Positions 1 to 12,665 of a DNA stretch of 13,471 nucleotides are shown here, piece after piece. The position numbers were made by a program, and so were the translations under genes. Position 1 is the first letter of the stretch; every line of letters starts with the position of its first letter. The notes beneath the pieces were generated by a model. It was not told the origin of the DNA, did not search any database, and saw nothing but the letters and a program-made list of their open reading frames with translations. Origin of the DNA: Lachnospiraceae bacterium UBA4316 (GTDB taxonomy: Bacteria > Bacillota > Clostridia > Lachnospirales > Lachnospiraceae); the NCBI GenBank assembly GCA_002394535.1, contig DGUG01000073.1, forward strand, positions 1 through 13,471. Reading direction: 5' to 3'.

Positions 1-1069
1 CAAGTTTAAACATTTTATCGGAACCTATTTTATTTTTTTCCAGCAGTTCCGATTTTCTTTGCTCCGCATCAGGGTACATCGTGCGAAACTTATACATCCG
101 GAAAGGCTTACCGTTCTTGCCGATCCTCTCCTGGACAAAAATCACCGGACCCGGGCTGTTTACACATATAAGCGGTGCAATGAAGATATACAAAATTCCG
201 GTAACAATACACCCCAAAACACCTCCGGCAATATCGGCACATCTTTTTACAAACGCGTCGGTTGCGGTCATAGACCTTCTTCCGGCCGTAAATACTTTAT
301 ATGGTCCGATCTTTCTGATCCTGATACTGTTCCAGCTCCCCTTTATTGGTAGTGTGATTGCACAGCTTACGTCAATCCCCACATTTATGAGCCCTTCGGT
401 CATTCTCTTGACCTTCTTCGCATACAGTCCTTCATCGGGAACCATGATGAGTACCTCATCAACCCATCGTCGCGTTATACTTGTAGGATCAAGATCATCA
501 TAGGGCATTACCGGTATGCCCTTATTATTCTTCAATTTTGGCTCGTCATCAAGCAACACAACCGAGTCAAGAAAATAAGCCTTATCCTGCGATAATCTGC
601 TGAAATCTTCTTCCAGCCTGTCATTTGTAGTTACAAGTACAAGAGAACGGGAAACGTTCCTGGCCGCAAGCAGCCGCCACTTGTTAGCAAGCCTTACTGC
701 ATAATCAAGAATGACGAAAAAAACAACTGTTCCGCCATACTGCAGCCTCGATACTTCGCCTGTTCTGTGTACAACAAACAGATACACAAGGGCAATCAGA
801 AATACCCAGCCCGTATATTTGATAACAGCAACGGCCTCATCGATACGGCCGCGCCGAAGAATTCCCCCGTAACTGTTAGAAAAAGCGATCACAAGCATCT
901 GTGATGCCATGATCACCACCGCCTGATACTGAAATGAATCATTTCTGTACGGATTTGACAGATCATGAAATATCCAATAGGCAAGCACAAAGCTTACCTG
1001 CATAAATATCAGATCCAGCAGTATAAAATCAATATGCTTGACAAGGCCTTTTTGAGGAGCCCGATCCAT
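1..1069 (-). CDS. Undecaprenyl-phosphate sugar-1-phosphate transferase, module B (partial, C-terminus beyond window)
   Basis: Transfers a sugar-1-phosphate from a nucleotide sugar to undecaprenyl phosphate at the inner face of the membrane, the first step of polymer synthesis. The 356 visible residues show four N-terminal membrane segments (about 13-34, 48-64, 84-101, 112-126), a middle cytoplasmic domain (about 140-265), and the start of the bacterial sugar transferase domain: KRCADIAGG (275-283), a hydrophobic segment (284-302), NSPGPVIFVQERIG (304-317) and FRMYKFRTM (323-331). The frame runs open off the left edge, so about 125 residues, including the catalytic Asp-Glu pair, lie outside. 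ATG at 1069 is preferred over ATG at 1075 because GGAGA (1076-1080) directly abuts the latter but is 6 bases from the former. It is a clear paralogue of the transferase at 6241-7689. The sugar specificity cannot be read from the sequence. Confidence 0.93.
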   Translation of the reverse strand, partial: MDRAPQKGLVKHIDFILLDLIFMQVSFVLAYWIFHDLSNPYRNDSFQYQAVVIMASQMLVIAFSNSYGGILRRGRIDEAVAVIKYTGWVFLIALVYLFVVHRTGEVSRLQYGGTVVFFVILDYAVRLANKWRLLAARNVSRSLVLVTTNDRLEEDFSRLSQDKAYFLDSVVLLDDEPKLKNNKGIPVMPYDDLDPTSITRRWVDEVLIMVPDEGLYAKKVKRMTEGLINVGIDVSCAITLPIKGSWNSIRIRKIGPYKVFTAGRRSMTATDAFVKRCADIAGGVLGCIVTGILYIFIAPLICVNSPGPVIFVQERIGKNGKPFRMYKFRTMYPDAEQRKSELLEKNKIGSDKMFKL

Positions 1070-1100
1070 AGTCATTCTCCGGATAACACTTTTTCAAAAC

Positions 1101-1126
1101 GTCTGCAGCCCGCAAGGGCTGCAGAC
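1101..1126 (-). terminator. Strong hairpin between secreted-protein gene and sugar transferase gene
   Basis: A perfect 11-bp stem (GTCTGCAGCCC / GGGCTGCAGAC) closes a 4-base loop. In the leftward transcript it is followed by GUUUUG and then AAAAAG. The U-run is short, so it may be a leaky intrinsic terminator or a 3'-end stabiliser for the secreted-protein message, with partial readthrough into the transferase gene that starts 32 bases later. The flanking gap 1070-1183 also holds a 10-bp palindrome GTACTAGTAC (1143-1152). Confidence 0.6.
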
Positions 1127-1183
1127 AGCTACCACATGATTTGTACTAGTACGTTATGTCTTAATAGATATTAATGATTTTGC

Positions 1184-1741
1184 TTATTTAACTACGTTGT
1201 AAACGCAAGGGATCGGAAGTCTGGCACTGATAGTTCCGTTTCTTCCGACTGTTGCTGTAAGTACCTTGGGAGTAGGATCACCGGGTACATAGTAAAGAAT
1301 GGTGACTTTCTCTCCGGGTGCTGTCATTGCAACAGTAAGGCTAACCCTCTTTGTGCCTGTGCTGCCATCAGCATTCGCGATAAGCTGGGAGGCAACGATT
1401 ACACCTGTGCCTCCGTTCTTGATGATAGCCTGCTGAACACTTACATCCTTTAAGATGTCAAGCTTAGCCATGGCAACTACAGCAGGTGCTGCTGCTCCTG
1501 TTGCTACTCCGGCTGTATTAACAGCTGCTGTTGTAGCAAGAGCTACTGCCTGCTGAGGAGTTGTTGCAACTGCTGCTGACTCAGCGGCTGTAACCGCATA
1601 TCCCTTTGCTGCTGCAACTGATGTCGAAACCGATACAGGTGTTGACATTACAGTTGAAGTGCTGGGACTTGCCGCAAATACAGGCATTGCTGTTGCCGCA
1701 AGAACAAGTGCAGCTGTTGCGATTGAAACTAACTTCTTCAT
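1184..1741 (-). CDS. Small secreted protein, module B (unknown function)
   Basis: A 185-residue exported protein of unknown function. It has a standard Sec signal peptide (MKK, hydrophobic core 8-20, likely cleavage after VFA at residue 23), then a low-complexity Ala/Thr/Val/Ser-rich stretch (24-92), then a compact domain (about 93-185) ending in a predicted beta-rich region. The reading frame stays open further upstream, but the ATG at 1741 is chosen because a full AAAGGAGG ribosome binding site (1752-1759) lies 10 bases away and the signal peptide starts there. The upstream extension would run through a hairpin repeat. The last 45 residues resemble the end of the secreted protein at 10118-10609 (VTILYYVPG/VFAYILLPNG, then a conserved RNG). 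There is no LPxTG-type anchor or membrane segment at the C-terminus. It lies between LCP and sugar transferase genes. Confidence 0.85.
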   Translation of the reverse strand: MKKLVSIATAALVLAATAMPVFAASPSTSTVMSTPVSVSTSVAAAKGYAVTAAESAAVATTPQQAVALATTAAVNTAGVATGAAAPAVVAMAKLDILKDVSVQQAIIKNGGTGVIVASQLIANADGSTGTKRVSLTVAMTAPGEKVTILYYVPGDPTPKVLTATVGRNGTISARLPIPCVYNVVK

Positions 1742-1751
1742 TGGACACATC

Positions 1752-1759
1752 CCTCCTTT
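1752..1759 (-). promoter_or_regulatory. Full AAAGGAGG ribosome binding site that sets the start at 1741
   Basis: AAAGGAGG on the minus strand, 10 bases before ATG 1741 but only 1 base before the in-frame ATG at 1750. The spacing rules out the latter and excludes the longer open frame. Only the two small secreted-protein genes in this window have this complete motif. Confidence 0.8.
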
Positions 1760-1785
1760 CTGAAAGATGTCATGTGGTATATTTT

Positions 1786-1894
1786 GCAGATAGGGAGAAC
1801 CACGTAGTGGTGGGACCCTGTCTGCACGTGGAGCGCCCAATCTGTGACTGCGTAGCAGTCCCAGATTAGTCATCGATTCCGTAGGAATCGTGAC
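1786..1894. repeat. Three consecutive hairpins with identical GTA/TAC loops (REP/MITE-like palindromic element)
   Basis: Three palindromes lie back to back, each with a GTA loop (plus strand; UAC in the leftward transcript). The first is 1786-1825: outer arms GCAGATAGGG / CCCTGTCTGC (one mismatch), inner arms ACCAC (1799-1803) / GTGGT (1807-1811), loop 1804-1806. The second is 1839-1867: 13-base arms with one mismatch, loop 1852-1854. The third is 1869-1894: GTCA + CGATTCC / GGAATCG + TGAC with one bulged base, loop 1881-1883. The block fills most of the 177-base gap between the LCP stop and the secreted-protein start, so it would be in that gene's 5' leader. It contains no credible ORF. It resembles a dispersed palindromic repeat, but whether it recurs elsewhere cannot be seen here. 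Confidence 0.7.
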
Positions 1895-1918
1895 ATAATG
1901 CGCGACACACCTATTTAA

Positions 1919-3001
1919 TCACGACCTCTGGTAAAACACTTCCAGTATCAGCCTGATCATTTCCTCCTCATCAGGGTGATACTGCTCAAAATCATCCTTA
2001 AATTCTGTTTCGCCCTTAATCGTATACATACTGTTCTCGTCAAAACTCATGTCCTTTGCGCTGTTTATAAGCTTAGGAAGGTCTATCGATGCTACGATAT
2101 AATCCTGTCCGGCTTCATAAAGCTTGTTTGCAAGTCCCGGGTTATCCAGAAGTTTTCTGATAAATGCGAGAATGTACTGCTTCTGGCGCTCCAGTCTGTC
2201 ATTTGCCGATGCGAACTTATCAACATCTCTTGTTCTTATGTAAGCATATGCCTGCTCACCGGTAAGGTTTATTGGTGTTCCCTGAGGGATTACGATATCT
2301 CCCCGCTTAACCGACTCTATCGGCGTGATCTCCACACCGCCTATGGCATCATTTACAGCCGCAAGGCCTCCCATGTTAAGGGACATATATCCCGATATCG
2401 GAACATTTCTAAACAGCCTGTCCACGGCCTCAACAGAACGTATACACGATAATTTCATACCGTCCCCGTATCCGTGCTGCAAGCATATCTGAAGCTCCAT
2501 CTGAACGAGGAAATTACCTTCCTCGTCATATACATCAACAGGCACCATGGTATTTCGGTTAATCGCAATGATCTTGACATCACGCTTTGCTTCATCGAGT
2601 ACCAGCAGAAACATAGCATCCGACTGTCCGCCGCTGATGCCGTCAGCTGCCGGAGCTGCGATATTGTCGTTATCAATTCCCATGAACAGATAGTTCTGAA
2701 GGTTCTCGTTGTACTTGTACAGCTGCCCGTCATACATGATGAGTCCTTCATTCCATTTCTCAGCCGCAAAATCATCAAGTGAGTTTATCTGTCTGTAGGT
2801 AGGCTCTGCTTCCGTTACTGTTTCTTCGGAAACAGGCGCGCTTACATTAGTCTCATTAATATCAACCGTATCTGTTAAGCCTTCATCCGAAGTCCTAAAC
2901 GCAAATATCACAAGTACGATACCTGCTATTGTCAGGACGCCTACTATTCCGATGGCTGCATATATCCACTTTTTTCTTTTACTGTTTTCCGGTGTTTCCA
3001 A
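1919..3001 (-). CDS. LytR-CpsA-Psr (LCP) family ligase, module B
   Basis: LCP enzymes transfer undecaprenyl-pyrophosphate-linked polymers onto peptidoglycan outside the membrane. This 360-residue protein has a short basic cytoplasmic N-terminus, one membrane helix (about 13-35), an acidic linker (36-100) and an LCP domain (about 104-285). Recognisable landmarks are LFMGID (105-110), the conserved Asp of the RTDT-like element as QSDAM (126-130), IAINRNT (145-151; canonical IPRDT, Arg149 kept), GGVEI (221-225), YIRTRD (254-259) and the Arg-rich RLERQK (269-274). The start is TTG at 3001, with AGGGG nine bases upstream; no ATG fits. It begins 3 bases after the stop of the GH3-like gene, so the two are probably translationally coupled. 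It is divergent from the LCP at 10637-11764, which argues for a different polymer or acceptor. Confidence 0.92.
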   Translation of the reverse strand: METPENSKRKKWIYAAIGIVGVLTIAGIVLVIFAFRTSDEGLTDTVDINETNVSAPVSEETVTEAEPTYRQINSLDDFAAEKWNEGLIMYDGQLYKYNENLQNYLFMGIDNDNIAAPAADGISGGQSDAMFLLVLDEAKRDVKIIAINRNTMVPVDVYDEEGNFLVQMELQICLQHGYGDGMKLSCIRSVEAVDRLFRNVPISGYMSLNMGGLAAVNDAIGGVEITPIESVKRGDIVIPQGTPINLTGEQAYAYIRTRDVDKFASANDRLERQKQYILAFIRKLLDNPGLANKLYEAGQDYIVASIDLPKLINSAKDMSFDENSMYTIKGETEFKDDFEQYHPDEEEMIRLILEVFYQRS

Positions 3002-3004
3002 TGT

Positions 3005-4183
3005 CTATTGCCCCTGTGCTGCCTTGGCAGCTTCCTCAGCCTGTTTTGTTGCTGCCTTCATGGCATCCTCCGCCTGCTTCTGCAATGCTTTTAATGCATC
3101 TTCCGCCTGCTTCTGTGCTGCAGCTGCCGCAGCCGCGGCTTCCTCCTCCGGAGTCATCTTCTTGGTCTCCTTCTTTGTTGTGGTCTTAACTGCAGGCTTA
3201 GGTTCCTCCTCAGGCGGCTCTTTCTCCGACTCCTCGGGTCTTATCTGTGTAAGTGTATATCTTGCCGTAAGTGCATAGCCTGCCGCACTGTCAAGTGCCT
3301 CTGGTATTATTGTTCCGTCATTTGCTGCTGCTACGAGTCCGTCTCTTACCTGCCGGAAATCTTCCGTCAGATATACGACAAGAGTTCCGTTATTTATTGC
3401 ATCTGCTATGGCTGCCGGATCATCGGACTTTGCTACGGTAAATCCGTTTATCTCACTGGCCTGTGCCAGCTCGCTCAGGTCGCCGTAATGAGCGCTTACC
3501 ATGTTTGCAGCAGTAGCAGCATCCCACAGTTCTGACTCGTTATCACTTCCTGACTGTATCTGATACAGGTTTATTCCCTTATCCGAAAGTGTAACCGGAT
3601 CCGTAGTATCACCCCAATATCCTAAGAACAGGTTCAATCCGTTAACATCCCTCGCCCATCCTCTAAGGTTGGCCAGCATCTTCATCCCATCTGTTTCAGA
3701 TGTGAAGTTACTGTCGGAAAATACAAGTCCCGATACGGGATCAGCTGCATATGATTCCTTAAACACATCCCCAGCTATTGTCACGTTATCTTTTCCGGTA
3801 AGCTGTTCAGGGGTGGTCATAAGGATCGCATCAATCTTCTGCTCCGTGCTCATATCCGCAAGAAGACTTAATACCTCTTCGGGATAATCCATCGTATACA
3901 ATGTCCCGACAGTTCCCACCTCCTCTGCCTCACTCTCGGCCAGAAGGTCTGTCGGGAGCTGTATATCCTCCATGGTAAGGCCCGTACTCTCTTCGGTCGG
4001 AACAGTGTATGATTTCGCAGTCTCATCACTATCCCCGTAAACGTTATGTACAAAAGCAGCCACTCCCACGCCAGCAAGAGCCAGAATCTCAAGACCTATC
4101 CAGATAGTGGCGGCGCTCTGTTTAATCTTCTTCTTTCGCAGCTTCTTTGCTATGCTGTTTTTCGTTTTGCTGTCCTTCTTCAT
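3005..4183 (-). CDS. Membrane-anchored protein with degenerate glycoside hydrolase 3-like domain and coiled-coil tail
   Basis: 392 residues: a very basic N-terminus (1-22), one membrane helix (about 24-46), an acidic linker (50-100), a domain at about 105-315, a charged Pro/Glu/Lys linker (315-345) and an Ala/Gln/Lys/Glu helix (346-392). The domain resembles both ends of a NagZ-type GH3 barrel. DMSTEQKIDAILMTTPEQLTG (110-130) and PVSGLVFSDSNF (149-160) match the barrel start; AIADAINNGTLVVYLTEDF (258-276) and NDGTIIPEALDSA (288-300) match its end. The central part carrying KHFPGHG and the nucleophile Asp is missing, and the usual D-E-G-G element after strand 3 reads GYWGDT (188-193). At about 210 residues it is far shorter than a GH3 barrel (about 330), so catalysis is unlikely. 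A sugar-binding or structural role in polymer handling is inference. The start overlaps the upstream kinase gene by 62 bases. Confidence 0.7.
   Translation of the reverse strand: MKKDSKTKNSIAKKLRKKKIKQSAATIWIGLEILALAGVGVAAFVHNVYGDSDETAKSYTVPTEESTGLTMEDIQLPTDLLAESEAEEVGTVGTLYTMDYPEEVLSLLADMSTEQKIDAILMTTPEQLTGKDNVTIAGDVFKESYAADPVSGLVFSDSNFTSETDGMKMLANLRGWARDVNGLNLFLGYWGDTTDPVTLSDKGINLYQIQSGSDNESELWDAATAANMVSAHYGDLSELAQASEINGFTVAKSDDPAAIADAINNGTLVVYLTEDFRQVRDGLVAAANDGTIIPEALDSAAGYALTARYTLTQIRPEESEKEPPEEEPKPAVKTTTKKETKKMTPEEEAAAAAAAAQKQAEDALKALQKQAEDAMKAATKQAEEAAKAAQGQ
3017..3115 (-). repeat. Three 33-bp in-frame repeats encoding 11-residue helical repeats
   Basis: Residues 357-389 of the GH3-like protein read as three 11-residue units: QKQAEDALKAL, QKQAEDAMKAA, TKQAEEAAKAA. 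At DNA level these are 33-base units with shared cctgctt / gcatcttccgcc-type words. A hendecad period points to a long straight amphipathic helix or right-handed coiled coil at the extracellular C-terminus. Confidence 0.8.
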
Positions 4184-4991
4184 CTTCCTTATTATCTTTC
4201 TCTATGGCCATGGATGCCCGTTTGATATCTTCAAGGTTCTGCTTCATGCTGGCCTTCTGCGGTACAGACCGCTTCTGCATGACCTTGCCCTGTCGGCCGT
4301 AATAGTTTCCGTAGTAATTACCGTAGTATTTGCCGTAGTATCCGGTCTTCTTCTTATCTACCTTATTAAGAACTGCTCCGAGTATCCTTACTCCTGATGC
4401 CTCAAGCTGCTTCTTTACCGAGACAACTGCTCTGCTTGATACCTCTCCCTGTGATATGACTATGACCGCCCCGTCACATTCCTTGGCTATTACAGCTGCA
4501 TCTATCGCAGCACCAAGCGGAGCGCAGTCTATCAGCACATAGTCGAACACACCCTTCATTGATTCGATAAGATCACTATAATATTTACCCTCAAGCAGTT
4601 CTGTCGGGTTAATAACAGAAGGTCCTGCGAAGATCATCATAAGGTTCGCAAACTGGGTCTGATACACAACCTCCTCGAGGCTCTTTTGCCCCGACAGGAA
4701 GTGGGAAAGTCCGAGTATCCCTGCTCCGTCACTCGTCTTAGCTCTATGTCTGCCGACTAAGACTGATTTTCTCATGTCCGCATCTATGACAAGCACTCTG
4801 TTATCAGCTTCTACAAGAGACCTTGCAAAGTCCATGACAACCGTACTCTTGCCTTCGTTGGGCATTACCGATGTGAACAGTATCGTCTTGATATCATTAC
4901 CGCAAAACCTGATGTTAGTCCTAAGTTCCCTTAGCGATTCTCTCATGGCATTGCTTTGTTTTCTCATCTCATTTAGCTTGACTTCCTGCAT
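4122..4991 (-). CDS. cpsD: CpsD/CapB-type bacterial tyrosine kinase, module B
   Basis: Cytoplasmic BY-kinase that pairs with the adjacent CpsC/Wzz and autophosphorylates a C-terminal tyrosine cluster to control polymer length and export. Visible are Walker A SVMPNEGKST (41-50), Walker A' VLVIDADMR (66-74), Walker B YVLIDCAPLG (151-160; TPP is usual in place of CAP) and INPTELLEG (128-136). The tyrosine cluster is four YYG units (218-232, eight Tyr). Unlike its paralogue, which ends at the cluster, this protein continues for 57 more residues with a Lys/Glu/Gln-rich tail. The last 62 bases of the gene overlap the start of the GH3-like gene in another frame. It starts 6 bases after the CpsC stop. 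No cognate phosphatase gene lies in module B, so CpsB from module A may serve both. Confidence 0.93.
   Translation of the reverse strand: MQEVKLNEMRKQSNAMRESLRELRTNIRFCGNDIKTILFTSVMPNEGKSTVVMDFARSLVEADNRVLVIDADMRKSVLVGRHRAKTSDGAGILGLSHFLSGQKSLEEVVYQTQFANLMMIFAGPSVINPTELLEGKYYSDLIESMKGVFDYVLIDCAPLGAAIDAAVIAKECDGAVIVISQGEVSSRAVVSVKKQLEASGVRILGAVLNKVDKKKTGYYGKYYGNYYGNYYGRQGKVMQKRSVPQKASMKQNLEDIKRASMAIEKDNKEDEEGQQNEKQHSKEAAKEED
4296..4343 (-). repeat. 12-bp tandem repeat encoding the tyrosine cluster of kinase B
   Basis: Four consecutive 12-base units encode x-YYG (GYYG, KYYG, NYYG, NYYG; residues 217-232). The unit resembles the repeat in kinase A at 7695-7757. Copy number could vary by slippage and change the number of phosphorylatable tyrosines. 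Confidence 0.8.
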
Positions 4992-4997
4992 AACGAC

Positions 4998-5699
4998 TTA
5001 GAAATCCTCCTCTTCTTCGATAGGCAAAGAAGCCAGAACCTTGATACCAACTTTGTTCTCCACATCTTCAGGAGAAGAAATGTCATCATTGAATATCGCT
5101 GTAAGTGCCACCAGCATGGCAGCAACAACAAAGCCTGCGGCAAAACCGGCAATGGTATAGAATACTATCCCGTGATTGACGGGTTTACCGTCCGAGTATC
5201 CTCCCTTTACAAGTGACGGCGGGTCCTGGTCCATCTTCTCGGCAATGAATGCAGCAGCCACCTTTGCTATCTGGTCACATATCGCTTTTGCCCTCTCGGG
5301 ATCTTCATCGTTTACGATTATCTTGATAAATCGTGTATTAGTAGGGTTTTCAACTTCCACCTTCTTCTCAAGTTCCTCATAATCCTCGGGAAGGGACAGA
5401 TAATCTATGACTTTCTCCAGAACCGGCCTGTCCTTTGTTACGATCAGATAATCCTGGGTCAGATTCGCACCGGTCTGAAGGTCTGCAAGGCTCGTTATAG
5501 ACGTACTCTTGGTCAGAACATACAGCAGTGCGTTTGACTCATAGAGGGGATTTACAAAGAAAAATCGGTAACAAAAAGCGATCACGGCTGCAAGAATTGC
5601 GGATATGAGTATAATCTTCCACGATGTAAGAAGCGAAAACGCCAATTCCCGCAGGTCAATCTCTATTTCATCGTTATTGTTCAGTCTTTCATCATTCAT
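4998..5699 (-). CDS. cpsC: CpsC/Wzz-type polysaccharide co-polymerase, kinase activator (module B)
   Basis: Membrane chain-length regulator and activator of the CpsD kinase encoded next to it. The 233 residues have two membrane helices (about 27-49 and 177-203) flanking an extracellular domain, with the Wzz start signature IDLRELAFSLLTSWKII (14-30). The short cytoplasmic end DISSPEDVENKVGIKVLASLP (206-226) is the usual kinase-contact segment. DLQTGANLTQDY (73-84) and RPVLEKV (91-97) correspond to DLQSGTQLTKDY and RPVLEEV in the paralogue at 8415-9365. It is the first gene of module B, about 62 bases from the predicted transcription start at 5762. No Shine-Dalgarno sequence is visible upstream of ATG 5699; instead TGATAAC occurs twice there (5701-5707 and 5711-5717), so initiation may be weak or controlled. 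Confidence 0.92.
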   Translation of the reverse strand: MNDERLNNNDEIEIDLRELAFSLLTSWKIILISAILAAVIAFCYRFFFVNPLYESNALLYVLTKSTSITSLADLQTGANLTQDYLIVTKDRPVLEKVIDYLSLPEDYEELEKKVEVENPTNTRFIKIIVNDEDPERAKAICDQIAKVAAAFIAEKMDQDPPSLVKGGYSDGKPVNHGIVFYTIAGFAAGFVVAAMLVALTAIFNDDISSPEDVENKVGIKVLASLPIEEEEDF

Positions 5700-5731
5700 T
5701 GTTATCAGAGGTTATCAATTTCCGTATTAAT

Positions 5732-5747
5732 AGGAAGCCTACTTCCT
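5732..5747. promoter_or_regulatory. Operator-like palindrome, site 1 (downstream of module B promoter)
   Basis: AGGAAG-ccta-CTTCCT, a 6-bp inverted repeat in the module B leader, downstream of the predicted start at 5762. It shares the core GGAAG...ACTTCC with two other sites nearby. Confidence 0.65.
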
Positions 5748-5768
5748 GTTTTTCTCCATAATCGGTTT

Positions 5769-5798
5769 ATTATAGGCGCTTTACTTCCTTTTTGTCAA
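5769..5798 (-). promoter_or_regulatory. Consensus promoter of module B
   Basis: A perfect TTGACA (5798-5793) and a perfect TATAAT (5774-5769), separated by 18 bases, read leftward into the cpsC gene at 5699. Predicted transcription start is about 5762. Palindromes lie on either side and within the spacer, so this near-ideal promoter is probably held in check by a repressor. Confidence 0.85.
5775..5788. promoter_or_regulatory. Operator-like site 2, inside the promoter spacer
   Basis: GGCGCTTTACTTCC, with an intact right arm ACTTCC and a degenerate left arm. It occupies the spacer between the -35 and -10 boxes of the module B promoter, where a bound protein would block RNA polymerase. Its centre is 42 bases from site 1 and 32 bases from site 3, close to whole helical turns. 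Confidence 0.55.
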
Positions 5799-5806
5799 AT
5801 CGTTTC

Positions 5807-5820
5807 GGAAGTATACTTCC
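5807..5820. promoter_or_regulatory. Operator-like perfect palindrome, site 3
   Basis: GGAAGTATACTTCC, a perfect 14-bp palindrome 8 bases upstream of the module B -35 box and about 40 bases upstream of the -10 box of the regulator gene. A further half-site TACTTCGG follows at 5824-5831. It is the best candidate for the binding site of the neighbouring XRE protein. Confidence 0.7.
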
Positions 5821-5862
5821 TATTACTTCGGATGACGCCCCAAATGAGCGTATTGAGGCAGA

Positions 5863-5868
5863 TATAAT
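5863..5868 (+). promoter_or_regulatory. Probable -10 box of the XRE regulator gene
   Basis: TATAAT reading rightward, 27 bases before ATG 5895. At the expected -35 spacing only CCAAAT (5840-5845) is found, so the promoter is weak or needs an activator. Confidence 0.5.
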
Positions 5869-5894: not shown

Positions 5895-6230
5895 ATGTTA
5901 ATTTCAGATCCTAAAATAATAGGCGACAAACTTTTAAAAATACGAAAAGAAAAGAATCTGTCCCAGGAAGAGACAGCCTGGCGAGCCGGGATATCGCCCC
6001 GTGCATACGCTTCAATAGAGCGTGGAGAAACTCAGACACGGATTGAAACATTTGTTAAGATATGTGAGGTTTTCTCGGTGACTCCCGATGATATTCTCGC
6101 TGAAGATAAAAAAGCATCCCCACTGGAAAATCCCGTGGAAATGCTGAATAAACTAAATGACACAGAGCGCGAAACAGCCCTTCAATTACTGAATGTATAT
6201 ATCAGATCAATTGTAGATCCTTCCAAATAA
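5895..6230 (+). CDS. XRE-family helix-turn-helix transcriptional regulator
   Basis: DNA-binding protein of 111 residues and the only rightward gene. An HTH_3 domain fills about residues 7-68: IIGDKLLKIRKEKNLSQEETAWRAGISPR begins the domain, with helix 2-3 at SQEETAWRAGISPRAYASIERG and the closing helix FVKICEVFSVTPDDIL. The C-terminal half (about 75-111) is a short helical segment (PVEMLNKLNDTERETALQLL) that could mediate dimerisation. ATG 5895 is preferred to the in-frame ATG at 5880 because GAGG (5885-5888) is 6 bases upstream, whereas 5880 would leave only about 5 leader bases from the predicted start of transcription. The nearby palindromes suggest it controls module B and perhaps itself. 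A SinR-like role is analogy only: the site does not match the SinR consensus. Confidence 0.9.
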   Translation: MLISDPKIIGDKLLKIRKEKNLSQEETAWRAGISPRAYASIERGETQTRIETFVKICEVFSVTPDDILAEDKKASPLENPVEMLNKLNDTERETALQLLNVYIRSIVDPSK

Positions 6231-6240
6231 TCAAATCGGA

Positions 6241-7689
6241 TCACATCGCCCCTTCATCCCCTGCCACCAGCAGGCGGATTGTCTTGAATACCAGTTTGAT
6301 ATCGAGCGACATTGACCACTCGTCTATGTACTTCGTGTCAAGCTTTACAACCTCTTCAAAATCGGTAATAAGGGATCTTCCTGATATCTGCCACAGACCT
6401 GTGATTCCCGGCTTGCATGTAAGTCTTGCTCTGTGATGGTATTCGTATTTTTCCCATTCATCAACTGTCGGAGGTCTCGTTCCCACAAGCGACATTTGAC
6501 CCAGAAGTACGTTGAAGAACTGGGGGAATTCATCGAGGCTGTGCTTCCGAAGAAATGCCCCGATTCCGGTATGCTGCACGCCGTTTTCATCGACGGTGTT
6601 ACCGATGACTCTCGGATCAAAATCAAGCTTAAACATCATACCGTCTTCATTACGGTTCATGTTCTCAAGTTCTGATTTTTGCGCATCGGCACCCACGTGC
6701 ATCGTCCGTAATTTATACATACGGAATTTTCTGCCGTTTCGCCCGATCCTCTCCTGGGTATATATGACAGGCCCCGGGGACTGCTTCTTTATCATCGGAC
6801 CGCATATGGCAATTATGACAAGTGCCATAATGCTTCCCACAAGACCGCCGGTTATGTCCATCAGTCTTTTTATTGCATGCTCAAGCGGAGTTGCGTACCT
6901 CTCCGCAGCCGTCAGAACAGTGATGCCCGCGATCCTGTTACCGAAGGGATGACTTCCCATGTGCCTTAGCCCCGATACCGCAAAGTGCACCGTAACCGTC
7001 ATCTTTCTGCACTCTTCCATCAGCTTGTCTATTCGCGGAGTAATCTTCTCGCAGTCAATGAATACCGAATCGATCCACTCTCTACAGATGTAATCTCCCG
7101 CTTCTTCTATATTGCATACAACAGGTACACCGCAAACCTCACTTCGTTTGTCACGCTTTGTAAACACTATTCCGGTAACCTTGTACGTATCCCCATGATT
7201 TTCCGTAAGGGTCCTGATCGTCTCCTCCGCAAGTGCCGGATCGACTACAGCAAGCATAGACAGCTTGTTTGAATCATTTATCCTGGTATGATTGAGCACA
7301 TATTTCCATGAAATTCTCGTAAGATAGGATATCAGGACATGAAGAATAAAAGTCAGAAACAGCAGAATACGTGAATACTCTGCTCCGGCTTTCTGGGCAT
7401 ACATATATACTACCGAAAGTGCAAAAACGAGGATGCACGTTTTCACGGTCTCGACGAATTCTATGAAGAATCCGCGCTTTAGTACGTTGTGCATGGAATT
7501 GATCGACATCACCACCACGAAGTCAATGAGAAAGAGCACAAAGCCAAGTTCTCTGTATATGCCTTCACCATAGAGCACCTCGCGGAATCTCAGCCACATA
7601 GCCAGCACATACGCTATCTGGAGGCTTATCTCTTCCACTATTATAAAATCAAGATGTTTTGTCCATTCCTGCCGGTATCGTTTGTACAT
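6241..7689 (-). CDS. Undecaprenyl-phosphate sugar-1-phosphate transferase, module A
   Basis: Initiating enzyme that attaches the first sugar phosphate to undecaprenyl phosphate. The full-length 482-residue protein has four N-terminal membrane helices (about 13-34, 46-63, 82-98, 106-124), a Rossmann-like middle domain (about 140-265) and the C-terminal sugar transferase domain. The latter has KRLMDITGG (274-282), a membrane-inserted helix (283-300), QSPGPVIYTQERIGRNG (303-319), FRMYKLRTM (322-330), the catalytic Asp-Glu pair in SLDEFPQ (384-390; D386, E387), MSLVGTRPP (399-407) and KPGITGLWQISGR (426-438). This is the usual length for WbaP/CpsE-type enzymes; the sugar is unknown. It starts 2 bases after the kinase stop, so it is tightly coupled. 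It is the last gene of module A, and its stop faces the XRE stop 10 bases away with no terminator between. Confidence 0.95.
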   Translation of the reverse strand: MYKRYRQEWTKHLDFIIVEEISLQIAYVLAMWLRFREVLYGEGIYRELGFVLFLIDFVVVMSINSMHNVLKRGFFIEFVETVKTCILVFALSVVYMYAQKAGAEYSRILLFLTFILHVLISYLTRISWKYVLNHTRINDSNKLSMLAVVDPALAEETIRTLTENHGDTYKVTGIVFTKRDKRSEVCGVPVVCNIEEAGDYICREWIDSVFIDCEKITPRIDKLMEECRKMTVTVHFAVSGLRHMGSHPFGNRIAGITVLTAAERYATPLEHAIKRLMDITGGLVGSIMALVIIAICGPMIKKQSPGPVIYTQERIGRNGRKFRMYKLRTMHVGADAQKSELENMNRNEDGMMFKLDFDPRVIGNTVDENGVQHTGIGAFLRKHSLDEFPQFFNVLLGQMSLVGTRPPTVDEWEKYEYHHRARLTCKPGITGLWQISGRSLITDFEEVVKLDTKYIDEWSMSLDIKLVFKTIRLLVAGDEGAM

Positions 7690-7691
7690 GA

Positions 7692-8414
7692 TTATTTCCC
7701 GTAATAACTCCCGTAATATTTACCGTAGTACTTGCCATAATATTTACCGTAATACTTGCCACCGATCTCAACCTTGTTGAGTACGACTCCGAGTATGTTG
7801 CAGTCTGCTTTCTGGAGCTGCTCCACAACTCTTTGGGCAAAATTGCGGCTGATGGTTCTCGGCTCCATAACCACCACTGCGCCGTCACACTCCTTGGCGA
7901 CTATGGCGCTGTCTATTACACTGCCAAGAGGCGGCGTGTCAATAATGATATAATCAAACTGGCCCCGCAGTGTTTCAAGTGCGGTCCTGAATCTCTTTAC
8001 TCCGAGAAGTTCTGCCGGATTGGGCGGCACCGCTCCCGTCGGAATCAGGAATAATCTAGGGATATTGGTCTTGAATATGCACTCTTCAAGCGGCTTTCTG
8101 CCTGCCAGAAAATAGGCAAGCCCGCCTGTTGCCTTGGACATCTGATAGCGCCCGTTAAGTACGGATTTACGCATATCGGCATCAATAAAGAGCACCCTCT
8201 TTCCTGCCTCTATCATTGAAATTGCAAGATTAAACGATACGGATGATTTTCCCTCCCCCGGGACGCAGCTCGTAAAAGCGATAGTCTTGACATCATCTCC
8301 GCAAAAATCAATATTTGTACGGAGTGTTTTGAACGCCTCGCTTAAGCGAAAATCAAGGGTGATCTTTTTATTTATGGTTATTAGGTTCCGGCTCTCGTTT
8401 GTCTCCCCTGCCAT
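7692..8414 (-). CDS. cpsD: CpsD/CapB-type bacterial tyrosine kinase, module A
   Basis: Cytoplasmic BY-kinase working with the CpsC protein encoded immediately upstream. Among its 240 residues are a Wzz-contact N-terminus, EAFKTLRTNIDF (26-37), Walker A SCVPGEGKSS (49-58), Walker A' VLFIDADMR (74-82), Walker B YIIIDTPPLG (155-164) and PPNPAELL (130-137). The C-terminus (220-240) is five consecutive (K/S)YYG units, giving ten tyrosines and ending the protein. The ATG directly abuts the TAA of cpsC (stop 8415-8417, start 8414), and the sugar transferase follows 2 bases after its stop. The phosphatase CpsB at 9387-10115 is the expected antagonist. Kinase domain motifs are more canonical than in the module B paralogue. 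Confidence 0.95.
   Translation of the reverse strand: MAGETNESRNLITINKKITLDFRLSEAFKTLRTNIDFCGDDVKTIAFTSCVPGEGKSSVSFNLAISMIEAGKRVLFIDADMRKSVLNGRYQMSKATGGLAYFLAGRKPLEECIFKTNIPRLFLIPTGAVPPNPAELLGVKRFRTALETLRGQFDYIIIDTPPLGSVIDSAIVAKECDGAVVVMEPRTISRNFAQRVVEQLQKADCNILGVVLNKVEIGGKYYGKYYGKYYGKYYGSYYGK
7695..7757 (-). repeat. 12-bp tandem repeat encoding the tyrosine cluster of kinase A
   Basis: Five 12-base units plus a final Lys codon encode KYYG-KYYG-KYYG-KYYG-SYYG-K. Tyr codons alternate between TAT and TAC across units, so the repeat is somewhat diverged at DNA level while the protein pattern is exact, suggesting selection for the pattern. Confidence 0.85.
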
Positions 8415-9365
8415 TTATCTGACCCTCCTGTTATTTTCAAAACTGTCGTGAGTTTCTCCAAGTATGCTGTCTGCTTCCCTGAGTTCAACAGCCTGCGGAG
8501 CCTGTGGCTCGACTATCTCGCCTGTATTGTCCACAGCTGCAGAGATCGCTTTGACTTCCTTTTCTATCTTTGATGCATCCGATAGAGTTTCTGTCATTAC
8601 AACGTGGGAATGTGAAGAAACCTTCTTTTTCTTCTTGCTTGCGGATTTATTTCTGACTAGTTCCTCGTCAAGTACAGGGATCGAGCCAAGAACCGACAGC
8701 CCCAGATATTTTTCAACATCATCGGGATTTTTGATCGTATCATCCATTATGAATACAATAATGATTATCATAACGGCTACCGCTCCTCCGAGTACTCCTC
8801 CGATAAGCGTATTTCTGATAGTTTTGGGACTTGATATTTCTGTAGGGAGATTTGCCTCCTCAACGACGTTAACCGCTTCCGTATTCATAACATTTGCGAT
8901 ATGCTCGGATGCCGATTTTCTGATTCCGTCCGCCATTGCCCTTGCCATGTACGGATCGGTGTCTTCTGCGGTTATCGAAACGATACGTGTATCTGTAGGA
9001 ACCGATACCGTGATCTTCTTTTTAAAATCATCGTTATCGATGTCTATACTAAGTTCCGCCTTTACTTCCTCAAGCACCGGACGGCTCGTGACAAGTTCCT
9101 GATAGTCCTTGGTAAGCTGTGTTCCGGACTGAAGATCGCTGTAGGTAAGGGATTCGGAATTCTGTCTGTTTATAACATAGATTTTAGTTGTGGATTCATA
9201 CTTAGGAGTAATCAGAAAGAAGCATACAAGATATGTTGCGGCTGCAAAAACAAGCGCACTTACTATCACTATCCAAATCTTGGATAGTACAACCCCTGCC
9301 AGTTCGAGAATGTCTATTTCCAGAACATCCTCTCCGTCATTTACGGCACGACGATCCTGTTCCAT
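8415..9365 (-). CDS. cpsC: CpsC/Wzz-type polysaccharide co-polymerase, module A
   Basis: Membrane chain-length regulator and kinase activator. The 316 residues contain LEIDILELAGVVLSKIWIVI (15-34), two membrane helices (about 31-53 and 185-207), an extracellular domain with DLQSGTQLTKDY (78-89), RPVLEEV (95-101) and DTDPYMARAMAD (135-146), and the pre-TM2 proline segment ANLPTEISSP (171-180). After the normal kinase-contact segment NPDDVEKYLGLSVLGSIP (213-230) comes an unusual cytoplasmic tail of about 80 residues (237-316), starting with a Lys-rich patch ASKKKKKV and continuing acidic and probably disordered. The module B paralogue lacks this tail. A Gly/Ala-type AGGGGGAG ribosome binding site lies 4 bases before ATG 9365. 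The stop codon abuts the kinase start. Confidence 0.94.
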   Translation of the reverse strand: MEQDRRAVNDGEDVLEIDILELAGVVLSKIWIVIVSALVFAAATYLVCFFLITPKYESTTKIYVINRQNSESLTYSDLQSGTQLTKDYQELVTSRPVLEEVKAELSIDIDNDDFKKKITVSVPTDTRIVSITAEDTDPYMARAMADGIRKSASEHIANVMNTEAVNVVEEANLPTEISSPKTIRNTLIGGVLGGAVAVMIIIIVFIMDDTIKNPDDVEKYLGLSVLGSIPVLDEELVRNKSASKKKKKVSSHSHVVMTETLSDASKIEKEVKAISAAVDNTGEIVEPQAPQAVELREADSILGETHDSFENNRRVR

Positions 9366-9386
9366 TTTCTCCCCCTATTCCCCTTA

Positions 9387-10115
9387 TTAATCTACATACT
9401 CATTCGACAGAATTCTTGACGGATTTACTGAAAAGAGCCTGTCATGATAATCCTCTCCGTATTTTTTCGCAATATACTTCGAAGCCTTTGCAAGTTCAGG
9501 CGCTCTGTGCCCTACCCCGTGAGCATCAGTCGCCACAAAATGAACCATTTGATTCTTTAGAAGCTTTTTTACGAACCTTCTTATCCTGAAGTTCCCCTTA
9601 AGTGCCTCAGCATTTATCTGAACATAAGCACCCTTCTCGATAAGACCGTCCACAAAATCAATATCGCCCACAAGATTCTCATATCTTTCTATATGAGCAA
9701 TTATCGGAAGATATCCCGCATTGATCAGGTTTGTAATGCCATCTTCTATAGAATGTTTATCAAGTGTAAAACCAAACTCCGTTAGCACATAATCGGAGCC
9801 TGCCATTGTTAATACCGTTCCGTCCTCAAGCCACGATATGGCGCTGGGATAGTAATACACTTCACAGCCGAGATACAGCTCTATTCTGCCTGCCTTTTCG
9901 TCACCCTGCGCCACCCTGCGTAGCTTGTCAAAACGCTCACGGATCGTATCAACGTCCGCTTCCATATACCCCTTATGATAATGGGGCGTAAGGATAGCCC
10001 GTCTGATTCCTTCGTCATACATTACGCGAAGCATTGCAACAGACTTATCCATGTCTCTTGCTCCGTCATCAACTCCCGGAATCACATGGCAATGAATATC
10101 GGTAAGTCCGGTCAT
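9387..10115 (-). CDS. cpsB: CpsB/YwqE-type tyrosine-protein phosphatase (PHP domain)
   Basis: Metal-dependent phosphatase that removes phosphate from the CpsD tyrosine cluster. All PHP-fold metal-site elements are visible in its 242 residues: DIHCHVIPGVDDG (6-18; H8, H10, D16), TPHYHKG (43-49; H45, H47), GCEVYY (83-88; E85), IAHIERY (139-145; H141, R144) and ATDAHG (195-200; D197, H199). Length is normal for the family (about 240-255). It lies 2 bases after the stop of the small secreted-protein gene and 21 bases before cpsC, giving the classical B-C-D gene order in module A. It is the only phosphatase in the window. Confidence 0.96.
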   Translation of the reverse strand: MTGLTDIHCHVIPGVDDGARDMDKSVAMLRVMYDEGIRRAILTPHYHKGYMEADVDTIRERFDKLRRVAQGDEKAGRIELYLGCEVYYYPSAISWLEDGTVLTMAGSDYVLTEFGFTLDKHSIEDGITNLINAGYLPIIAHIERYENLVGDIDFVDGLIEKGAYVQINAEALKGNFRIRRFVKKLLKNQMVHFVATDAHGVGHRAPELAKASKYIAKKYGEDYHDRLFSVNPSRILSNEYVD

Positions 10116-10117
10116 TT

Positions 10118-10609
10118 CTAGTGAAGCGTAGCCTTTCCTGCTGATGTATTTGCTCCTGCGGGCGCATTAAGTTCCACGATTGAAACTGTTCCGAATGAAG
10201 GTGCCATGAAGCCTACATATCCGTTTCTTATAGTACAGGGAACGATAATTGTTTTTCCGTTGGGAAGCAGGATGTATGCAAACACATTTGTTGCCCCGTT
10301 CTTTAAGCCTGCTGCCGCAAGAAGAACCGGAACCACACCGCCCTTGTAGTTTGCAGGTGCTTCGATTGTTATCGTACCTTTAACGCTCGGAACCATGCCC
10401 AGGGATGCCGCATTACTGGAAATAAATGATCCTAATGACGTCAGCTCCTTCTGAGTCGGAACCTTGATAGATGCCACAGATGCACTTGTAGATCCCGGAA
10501 CAACTATTGATACGACTCCTGCCTGAGGGCTCGGAGCAGCAAAAGCTGTCGATGAAATTGCAAGCGTAAGGGCTGCGGTTAATGCTGCTAATGATTTGAT
10601 TTTTCTCAT
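10118..10609 (-). CDS. Small secreted protein, module A (unknown function)
   Basis: A 163-residue exported protein of unknown function. The Sec signal peptide is MRKIKS plus a hydrophobic core (7-20), with likely cleavage after TAFA at residue 24. The mature part is rich in Val/Ser/Ala/Pro with an amphipathic segment (52-72) and a predicted beta-rich end (75-146): GTITIEAP, NVFAYILLPNGKTIIVP, RNGYVGFMAPSFGTVSIVEL, then a loose Ala/Gly tail. Its C-terminal region resembles that of the module B protein at 1184-1741. The start at 10609 is chosen over the upstream in-frame ATG at 10633 because AAAGGAGG (10616-10623) lies 6 bases before it and the signal peptide begins there. There is no sortase motif. 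Tight spacing to cpsB (2 bases) places it within the operon. Confidence 0.86.
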   Translation of the reverse strand: MRKIKSLAALTAALTLAISSTAFAAPSPQAGVVSIVVPGSTSASVASIKVPTQKELTSLGSFISSNAASLGMVPSVKGTITIEAPANYKGGVVPVLLAAAGLKNGATNVFAYILLPNGKTIIVPCTIRNGYVGFMAPSFGTVSIVELNAPAGANTSAGKATLH

Positions 10610-10615
10610 TGGTCT

Positions 10616-10623
10616 CCTCCTTT
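10616..10623 (-). promoter_or_regulatory. Full AAAGGAGG ribosome binding site that sets the start at 10609
   Basis: A complete AAAGGAGG, 6 bases before ATG 10609. It excludes the longer in-frame start at 10633 and suggests strong translation. Confidence 0.8.
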
Positions 10624-10636
10624 GATAAGACACCGC

Positions 10637-11764
10637 CTACTCGGCAGGTGTGTAAAATCTGTCGACTATAAGCTGTTTTAGAGCATCTTCGTCAACGATG
10701 TAACCCATTTCATATTCGTAATCTTCTATTTCACCGGGCTCTATGCGTTTCATCTCACCCGGAACAGAAACTATATCTTTGTCGGACAGTTCCAGATCAA
10801 GCAGCAGCTTTGCCAGATAAGTCATCTCATCTATCGTAAGATTAGTCTTGACCTTGTCCGCCTCAGAGTTATACAGCGCTATGGGATATGTGATGTTTTC
10901 AGCCGTCCTGGCTTTAACCGCAGGGAAGAGTTTCTTGAGGTACATAACCTGTCTCTTCATCCTTCCCATTGCACTGTCATCTATGCCGGTATCTCTTCTT
11001 GCCACAAATATGACTGCATCCTTATTAAGAAGAAGATAATCCTTCGTTCCGGCTTTCATCTTCGGATTCCACTTTGTCAGATCCTCGGGTATGTCTACAG
11101 TGATTCCTCCGAGAGAATCATTGATATCGGGTATAGCCGTAATATCAACCGATACATATCTGTTTATAGGAATGCTGTACAGCAGATTGCTCACTGCATC
11201 CACCACGGCCTCGTTTGTCCTCTCGCCCTGAGTTCCGAAACTGTGCTGTATGGCTATGGGCCCTTTCTTGACCGTTGCAACCTCGTCATTAAGATCGAGC
11301 ACTTTTATGGAGGCCACGGTATCTCTCGGAATGCTCATGAAGCTTACTGTCTTCTTCACCGCATCTACCGTCCCGAGAACTATCGTATCTGCCTGATACG
11401 GATTGGCGTCGGTATCCTTGTCGCCCTTCAGTCCGTAGTCGTCTATACCCATAACGAGAATGTTTATCAGGTTGTCGTTGTATCTGTATTTCTTCCCATT
11501 ATAGGTTATCGTCACGTCTTCCTGATACTTTTTGGGCTGCGTCTTTTCAGGAGCCTCATCAAGCTCGTTGATCTTGTGCACCGAAATACCTGCCGGCTCA
11601 CTTGCCTGAAACATATCGGCGGTAAGATATGTAGCCCGCTGCCACTTGTGAAGAAGGAGCACGATTACTATACCGAGTATCCCTATTATAATAAGAAGCG
11701 TTATGAGCAATGCCTTAACCCATTCGGGCACTCTGCTTTTTTCTGTAGTGTCTTTCCTTCCCAC
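10637..11764 (-). CDS. LytR-CpsA-Psr (LCP) family ligase, module A
   Basis: Extracellular LCP ligase that attaches polyprenyl-linked polymer to the cell wall. The 375 residues comprise a basic N-terminus, one membrane helix (about 17-38), a linker and an LCP domain (about 98-285): ILVMGID (102-108), QADTIVLGTVD (124-134; D126), FMSIPRDT (142-149; R147), IQHSFG (172-177), SLGGITVDI (217-225), FVARRDTG (253-260) and GRMKRQ (267-272). All catalytic landmarks are more canonical than in the module B LCP. A short domain (about 290-375) follows. The start codon is GTG (11764), with AAAGG seven bases upstream; no ATG fits. It is 46 bases after the sortase stop and 27 bases before the secreted-protein gene. 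Confidence 0.94.
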   Translation of the reverse strand: MGRKDTTEKSRVPEWVKALLITLLIIIGILGIVIVLLLHKWQRATYLTADMFQASEPAGISVHKINELDEAPEKTQPKKYQEDVTITYNGKKYRYNDNLINILVMGIDDYGLKGDKDTDANPYQADTIVLGTVDAVKKTVSFMSIPRDTVASIKVLDLNDEVATVKKGPIAIQHSFGTQGERTNEAVVDAVSNLLYSIPINRYVSVDITAIPDINDSLGGITVDIPEDLTKWNPKMKAGTKDYLLLNKDAVIFVARRDTGIDDSAMGRMKRQVMYLKKLFPAVKARTAENITYPIALYNSEADKVKTNLTIDEMTYLAKLLLDLELSDKDIVSVPGEMKRIEPGEIEDYEYEMGYIVDEDALKQLIVDRFYTPAE

Positions 11765-11810
11765 TTCTTAACCTTTATGTCCCTCAAGAGTTACTTTTAT
11801 TTAAGTCGTC

Positions 11811-12665
11811 TCAATATCTTACTTCGTCCAGAACGCCGTACACGAACAGACGCTTATTCTCATCATCACAATGTGTCACGAGTCCGATCACATGATCCCC
11901 GAAGGAAGGTCTGGCTTCTTCCCTGAAGTTTGCGGACAGATCCCTTATGTCCTCCAACCCGTCAAAGAATTCCCCAAACTGCGCCGGATCGTTAAAATCA
12001 TATGCCAGAAGCATATTGTCGGCAGAGCCTGTGAAGCAGGCGTATATCCTGTATTTAAGCTCCGCATCGGATAAATATATGTTAATGCATTGATTTTCTT
12101 CGAAAAAATCGGAATCCCTGAATCTGTGCAGGCCCGCAAACATAGTGCCGTCTTCGGGATTGTGCCCGTATATAAGTGTCAGCGGGTCCGAAAAATCATC
12201 CGAATTCATGGAGTCGGTGATGATCATTCCTTTATCATCGGGATTCCCGTGTATGTCATGGGTGAAGTAGAAAGGATCCTCGGCATCCTCGCAATAGGCG
12301 ATAGGATAATCTATTCCACCACCGGGTATCTCTATCCATGCATATACATCGTCGCACTCGGCTGATGCACTCTCAAGTCCTGTTTCGTGCTCAGGCTCTC
12401 CCGAGCTTTCATATAATCCATACCAGCCGGAAGGTCTTGTTGCAACAGTTTCCTCTTCCGGGGTATTATTTTCAATCTGCTCGAAAATCGCGGGATCAAT
12501 TTCGCCAGTTCCCGCTTCCGGACTCTGCTGCCCGCCATCAGTGGCCTGTGTCTGCCCGTATCTTTCCTCTCTTATAATATAGGTAATCGCGGCTACCATC
12601 ACAGCTATAACAATAAGCGCTGCAACTATGGCGATTACTATCCCCTTGTTTGTACCTTTAACCAA
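11811..12665 (-). CDS. srtB: Class B sortase
   Basis: Membrane-bound transpeptidase that normally cleaves a sorting signal and links a protein to the wall. The 284 residues have a membrane helix (about 9-31), an acidic spacer (32-105) and a sortase domain: DVYAWIEIPGGGIDYPI (106-122), FYFTHDIHGNPDDKGMI (132-148), LIYGHNPEDGTMFAGL (164-179; His168), and LVTHCDDENKRLFVYG (262-277; Cys266 and Arg272). The TMFAGL element and overall length point to class B. The residue before the catalytic Cys is His instead of the usual Thr. The start is TTG at 12665 with AGGGA 8 bases upstream; the next Met lies inside the membrane helix. It begins 4 bases after the zinc-ribbon gene stop. No substrate with a sorting signal is encoded in the window. 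Confidence 0.92.
   Translation of the reverse strand: MVKGTNKGIVIAIVAALIVIAVMVAAITYIIREERYGQTQATDGGQQSPEAGTGEIDPAIFEQIENNTPEEETVATRPSGWYGLYESSGEPEHETGLESASAECDDVYAWIEIPGGGIDYPIAYCEDAEDPFYFTHDIHGNPDDKGMIITDSMNSDDFSDPLTLIYGHNPEDGTMFAGLHRFRDSDFFEENQCINIYLSDAELKYRIYACFTGSADNMLLAYDFNDPAQFGEFFDGLEDIRDLSANFREEARPSFGDHVIGLVTHCDDENKRLFVYGVLDEVRY

Follow-up and report, generated by a model that had tools for sequence, protein, structure and literature searches.

An XRE regulator gene with a putative repressor-operator array, kept in gut Clostridia and their kin while the facing gene changes, here beside a polysaccharide operon

In the lambda-type operator region three operators are located between divergent promoters beside the repressor gene, and the controller proteins of restriction-modification systems are small self-controlling regulators. 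For Bacillus subtilis SinR, an excerpt of PMC3163267 describes repression of the exopolysaccharide operon through several promoter sites, the site GTTCTYT in several orientations and SinI as the antagonist.

The stretch of 13,471 nucleotides analysed here (the window) contains an XRE gene next to a polysaccharide operon, and its comparison with SinR gives likenesses as well as differences. SinR, the repressor of epsA-O and the yqxM operon, has 111 residues (chain 1b0n_A) like the window protein; in both an HTH at the N-terminus is followed by a helical C-terminal part, and the window sequence matches SinR chains over the HTH. The polysaccharide operon beside several sites is a further likeness, known here from gene order and sites only. 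The operator is a different one, GGAAG..CTTCC in the window versus the GTTCTYT of that excerpt. For SinI the best PF08671 match in the window's own genome, which is 70.86% complete, stayed at 13.1 bits, below the cut-off of 31.4. SinR carries a C-terminal two-helix oligomerisation hook; the AlphaFold model of the XRE protein (mean pLDDT 89.6, pTM 0.59) shows HTH helices up to residue 68 followed by helices 80-85 and 89-107, but in a profile comparison with solved chains full-length SinR was aligned only over residues 9-75, and C.BclI ranked first.

The nearest solved folds to the model were ClgR, a Clostridioides protein (3ivp), C.AhdI and C.BclI, with SinR at rank 25. Restriction-modification controllers are thus among the closest chains both by profile and by fold; unlike at controller-protein loci, there are no restriction-modification genes among the 14 window proteins scanned. 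As in a lambda-type region, the sites A, B and C of the window occupy a divergent promoter region that adjoins a regulator gene; unlike the lambda operators, B is a half-site and the rightward promoter shows only a -10. The context of a phage CI/Cro system was absent: the Pfam scan of 14 window proteins revealed no phage gene, and the XRE protein matched none of 50,697 phage records at E 1e-8. PHROGs repressor families match its HTH part, as they do with many XRE proteins. The best NCBIfam match was RstR (NF041951) with 57.9 bits over residues 9-103, below the 80-bit cut-off. The protein passes the Pfam test for HTH_3 (PF01381, 53.7 bits versus a cut-off of 23), and no other domain was found in the Pfam scan. 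When the XRE protein of one relative (L058) was compared with 72,556 plasmid records, two distant matches (37%) were obtained, both from Paenibacillus. Since the operator differs from that of SinR and the RstR cut-off was missed, membership in SinR or phage-type systems is not established. By analogy, the mode of action of the XRE unit may resemble that of SinR on an exopolysaccharide operon and that of a small operator region of phage type.

The features of the window are compiled in Table 1. An earlier note on this DNA had claimed a near-perfect promoter, and the promoter scan confirmed it with a 12-of-12 match to TTGACA/TATAAT on the minus strand. Because of this orientation the promoter faces the leftward polysaccharide genes and points away from the XRE gene. 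Its spacer of 18 nt (5775-5792) starts with operator B. The candidate -10 of the XRE gene's own promoter has no recognisable -35; at every spacer of 15-19 the hexamer differs from TTGACA at 4-5 of its 6 positions. In the leader of the Wzz gene (5700-5762) no Shine-Dalgarno sequence was seen by eye just ahead of the ATG at 5699.

Table 1. Coordinates of the promoter elements, operator sites and genes of the window.
Feature	Position	Strand	Basis or remark
Operator A	5733-5746	.	GGAAGCCTACTTCC; in leader of leftward transcript
Operator B	5775-5788	.	half-site GGCGCTTTACTTCC; within -35/-10 spacer
Operator C	5807-5820	.	perfect palindrome GGAAGTATACTTCC; 8 bp upstream of leftward -35
-35 box TTGACA of leftward promoter	5798-5793	-	promoter scan
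-10 box TATAAT of leftward promoter	5774-5769	-	promoter scan
Candidate -10 TATAAT of the XRE gene's own promoter	5863-5868	+	inferred
XRE (HTH_3) regulator, 111 aa	5895-6230	+	PF01381 2.1e-14; divergent from leftward promoter
Wzz-type chain-length protein, first gene of facing operon	4998-5699	-	PF02706 2.3e-13
Polysaccharide tyrosine autokinase (CpsD-like)	4122-4991	-	TIGR01007 4.3e-57
Unnamed ORF, same direction	3005-4183	-	no Pfam/NCBIfam match
LytR-CpsA-Psr (LCP) glycopolymer transferase	1919-3001	-	PF03816 6.9e-19
Unnamed ORF, same direction	1184-1873	-	no Pfam/NCBIfam match
Polyprenyl sugar-phosphate transferase, off contig end	2-1075	-	PF02397 1.7e-18

The same note had described three GGAAG...ACTTCC sites. 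Two of them, A and C, are full sites, strong palindromes and the only exact matches to GGAAGN3ACTTCC in the window, whereas in B the right half alone fits the pattern; the array therefore consists of two full sites and one half-site. The coordinates bear out the site centres (5739.5, 5781.5 and 5813.5), their spacings of 42 and 32 bp, and the placement of C upstream of the -35 box, of B in the spacer and of A in the leader. The array sites are real. When the window was shuffled 500 times with dinucleotides preserved, GGAAGN4CTTCC occurred with a mean of 0.004 (largest 1), and none of these shuffles contained two such sites within 100 bp. When up to 2 mismatches to GGAAGN3ACTTCC were allowed, 9 matches were found in the window versus a shuffle mean of 2.87, and 3 of 200 shuffles reached 9.

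For the analysis of relatives, a protein search yielded 11 homologues, and an alignment of 9 sequences led to 159 confirmed genome-contig loci. From these, 80 loci were kept, with XRE proteins 42-51% identical to that of the window. According to the record titles they belong to Lachnospiraceae, Oscillospiraceae and other Bacillota, many of them from ruminant guts. The layout of the array as in the window was found upstream of the XRE start in most relatives. The unit TTTGTCAA-N8-site C was present upstream of the XRE gene at up to 4 mismatches in 69/80 loci, with no mismatch in 12, one in 29, two in 17, three in 7 and four in 4. The other 11 loci had 5-6 mismatches (5 loci) or at least 7 (6 loci); among the latter, L065 has only about 70 upstream bases, and L095 and L134 have another gap. 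The count of 69/80 is not blind, since the scored consensus was derived partly from the same 80 loci, and the contrast is supplied by the controls. At up to 4 mismatches the unit was found in none of 1,600 mononucleotide shuffles (best 5), in none of 78 downstream stretches (best 7) and in none of 85 other or more distant XRE loci searched on both strands over 266 kb (best 5). The link between array and XRE gene is strongly supported by these numbers. Loss of the palindromes where the XRE gene is kept had been set beforehand as the refuting outcome; instead, the palindromes were kept together with the gene in 69/80 loci and in 29/30 genomes searched in full.

The anatomy of the array was described from the 69 loci selected for a unit whose gap is 8 nt; 67 of them have enough upstream DNA. 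Since the -35 box and C served as selection criteria, they are conserved in this set partly by choice. The leftward -10, which was not a picking criterion, reads TATAAT in 34/67 loci and has at most 1 mismatch in 59/67. A spacer of 17 was assigned in 63/67 (best of 16-19, ties to 17), and in 33 loci of the 67 both promoter boxes are perfect. At the position of B, 32 bp from C, the right half has 0-1 mismatch in 52/67 loci and the left half at least 2 mismatches in 64/67. B is a half-site across the family, not in the window alone. Of the 60 loci in which an A could be recognised, 58 have it 54-55 bp away from C; in the window this distance is 74 bp, which leaves about 19 extra bp between A and B compared with the relatives. 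The helical phasing proposed earlier holds only in part. The 32 bp between B and C, about three turns, recur in the relatives, and by number A of the window fits as well (42 and 74 bp), but the usual distance of A to B is 22-23 bp, which is no whole number of turns. The sites of the relatives have the form GGAAN..NTTCC and those of the window GGAAG..CTTCC. A more distant XRE locus, L138, also has A, B and C at the 32-bp spacing, without a TTGACA (by eye). At L137, which contains a related XRE gene, the array was not found; other long inverted repeats were seen there by eye in the upstream region, perhaps a changed operator specificity.

In 56/69 loci C holds a TATAAT that faces the XRE gene, so that binding at C would also shut this gene. 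The window departs from the relatives in its 18-nt spacer and in a C without TATAAT, and the autorepression layout of most relatives is therefore absent in the window.

Sites over and around a perfect promoter make repression the natural reading. Very probably the array and the XRE protein are the off-switch of the polysaccharide operon itself, and it is likely that they form a dedicated repressor unit which shuts the leftward promoter and keeps the Wzz operon off until XRE activity drops. The XRE protein presumably binds the sites; the tight repression and the cooperativity suggested earlier, together with autoregulation, are likewise predicted properties of this protein. XRE dimers would occupy A and C, with a half-contact at B, so that the protein would cover the DNA just upstream of the -35 box (C), the spacer (B) and the early transcribed DNA (A). 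Bound XRE would block RNA polymerase at the leftward promoter, and the Wzz-led polysaccharide operon would stay off until XRE activity falls. As the array lies within the control region of the XRE gene, the protein probably controls its own synthesis.

Activators often act from a distance like that of C to the XRE start. It is therefore conceivable, if rather unlikely, that XRE is a dual regulator which represses the leftward promoter and activates its own promoter from C, possibly as a bistable switch. In the window the centre of C lies about 61 bp ahead of the inferred start of the XRE transcript, a distance typical for activators, and the TATAAT at 5863-5868 without a -35 has the common look of activator-dependent promoters. 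Against this stand the XRE -10 held by C in those 56 relatives, which points to autorepression, the fact that the start site is an inferred one, and a distance that by eye recurs in none of L057, L071 and L129.

The dedicated repressor reading can be set against the copy number of the unit. In a whole-genome search of 30 of the 80 genomes, 29 contained the unit at up to 2 mismatches upstream of the XRE gene, and one of these 29 had a further 2-mismatch match elsewhere; the single miss was the genome of L106, with a 9-nt gap. A search of the window's own genome that allowed up to 3 mismatches gave a single -35/site C unit, and a genome-wide regulon is unsupported there. Exact GGAAGN3ACTTCC was found at three places of this genome, namely A, C and C70:2601-2614, the last one inside an ORF that by eye is inositol-monophosphatase-like. 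At up to 1 mismatch the pattern gave 23 forward and 35 reverse matches, versus 22 and 27 for the backward pattern. Among 391 genomes of the class, 75 matched TGTCAA-N8-GGAANTATARTTCC at up to 2 mismatches, a threshold at which the backward control also matches some. The only exact match (G1100) is identical in coordinates and letters to the copy in the genome of L075; the window, G833 and G1007 have 1 mismatch and the remaining genomes of the 75 have 2. Judged by match counts and letters, no sign emerged of a second type of locus with an array but lacking the XRE gene. The XRE gene was found at E 1e-20 in 2/37 genomes of the window's genus, which suggests gain or loss and not steady inheritance.

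That some other protein binds the array, with the XRE gene merely one of its targets, appears very improbable in view of these results. The sites do cover the control region of the XRE gene as well, and binding by XRE is itself a prediction; however, the array tracks this XRE subfamily and is absent at the 85 other XRE loci, and a global regulator should show further copies, whereas the own genome has none and only one extra copy was detected among the 30 genomes. It is scarcely credible that the palindromes are RNA hairpins of a terminator or leader structure and not DNA operators, for although C was flagged as terminator-like on the plus strand and A lies in the leftward leader, C is upstream of the leftward -35, outside the transcript of this promoter, B is part of the spacer, and the T-run after C is weak. 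No Rfam match was obtained at the gathering threshold, and an RNA family was rejected on this ground.

We then compared the genes which the array faces in the relatives. A tree of 86 proteins placed the window in a group of 9 rows (support 100/99) together with P0003-P0007, L057, L071 and L129; the tree is based on few columns, the window branch is long, and the long branches of L071 and L129 may join falsely. Genomes related to that of L057 supplied two further members outside the tree, L260 and L261, whose proteins share 58% and 52% identity with the one of L057, and the DNA was read for six loci of the window group: the window, L057, L071, L129, L260 and L261. The window group keeps A, the -35 box and C; the perfect promoter and B are not kept. 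Each of the five other loci departs from the -10 consensus at 1-2 positions, and hardly anything of B is left in L261 and L071. Polysaccharide genes are faced in four of the six loci. In addition to the window these are L057, with CpsB followed by a Wzz fragment, L260, with a CpsB cut by the contig end, and L261, with two NusG-like proteins, a family 2 glycosyltransferase and then a weak, below-cut-off glycosyltransferase match. L071 faces a 63-aa ORF and then a YhcH-type gene, and L129 a gene that by eye is ribosomal protein S15-like; neither faces a polysaccharide gene. The Wzz fragment of L057 is 55% identical over 58 aa to the array-side Wzz of the window and 40% over 53 aa to the other one. 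The two NusG-like genes of L261 (3169-4237) come first behind the array, which suggests a second, antitermination layer of control.

A facing gene conserved throughout the family was rejected, as the facing genes vary among the 69 scanned by Pfam (the window's and 68 of 74 picked; the picks were automatic and sometimes skipped a nearer small ORF). Among the 25 Pfam families listed, out of 43, LRR_5 (6), DUF6591 (5) and LRR_8 (5) were commonest. Outside the window group the array faces leucine-rich-repeat surface proteins, S-layer-domain proteins, lipoproteins, small cysteine proteins and others. Facing ORFs were exported or membrane-like in 34/58 cases versus 148/584 for other ORFs of the same loci (Fisher p 4e-7), as judged by a crude N-terminal test with automatic choice of the ORFs and different length limits (facing at least 60 aa, other at least 100 aa).

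Several small facing proteins were seen in addition. A small ORF which by eye has a double-glycine-type leader lies opposite the array in L101 (5578-6000) and L102 (5597-6000), and in L101 a C39 peptidase ABC exporter lies behind it; the array unit may control a secreted peptide at these two loci. A family of 63-66 aa proteins, 33-61% identical, faces the array in L059, L083, L097, L110 and L058, and 4/5 members have an LHIxGxC-like stretch. In L099, L105 and L116 the facing gene encodes an MGTKEAxExW protein of 55-58 aa (51-55% identical), perhaps a helix-turn-helix protein.

The gene content of the window itself shows two tandem polysaccharide modules on the minus strand, 1-5699 and 6241-12665, with the XRE unit in between. 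Both contain a Wzz, a tyrosine kinase, an LCP protein and a sugar transferase, and the two Wzz proteins are 35% identical. The XRE gene and the sugar transferase gene of the right module are arranged tail to tail with 10 bases between their ends (6230-6241), and terminator-like matches in this region are weak. Because of the tail-to-tail ends and the weak terminators, transcripts of the right module might cross the XRE gene in antisense direction into the left module, and such read-through would by-pass the XRE switch.

In the open-licence PMC literature no paper was found on the array motif or on the XRE-array unit; a text search for the 14-mers in this literature returned one unrelated paper only, and an excerpt of PMC13121745 contains no mention of XRE. 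The unit is best read as a dedicated repressor-operator unit which is kept intact while the target gene changes, of SinR-like or lambda-operator-like kind and a new family. More tentatively, and with somewhat less than even confidence, we consider the XRE gene and the three-site divergent promoter as a portable, self-contained, single-copy control unit whose facing gene, often for a surface or exported product, has been swapped between lineages; lipoproteins, S-layer-domain and leucine-rich-repeat proteins, peptide exporters and polysaccharide operons would often be the swapped targets.

For the surface polysaccharide operon of an uncultured Lachnospiraceae-like bacterium, the analysis names a candidate regulator and defines both operator and promoter. 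A fixed array with changing targets raises the question of how a regulator with a single operator moves between surface genes. Dozens of gut Clostridia and their kin have the unit in front of other products, often exported ones, and results obtained at one locus would therefore bear on many.
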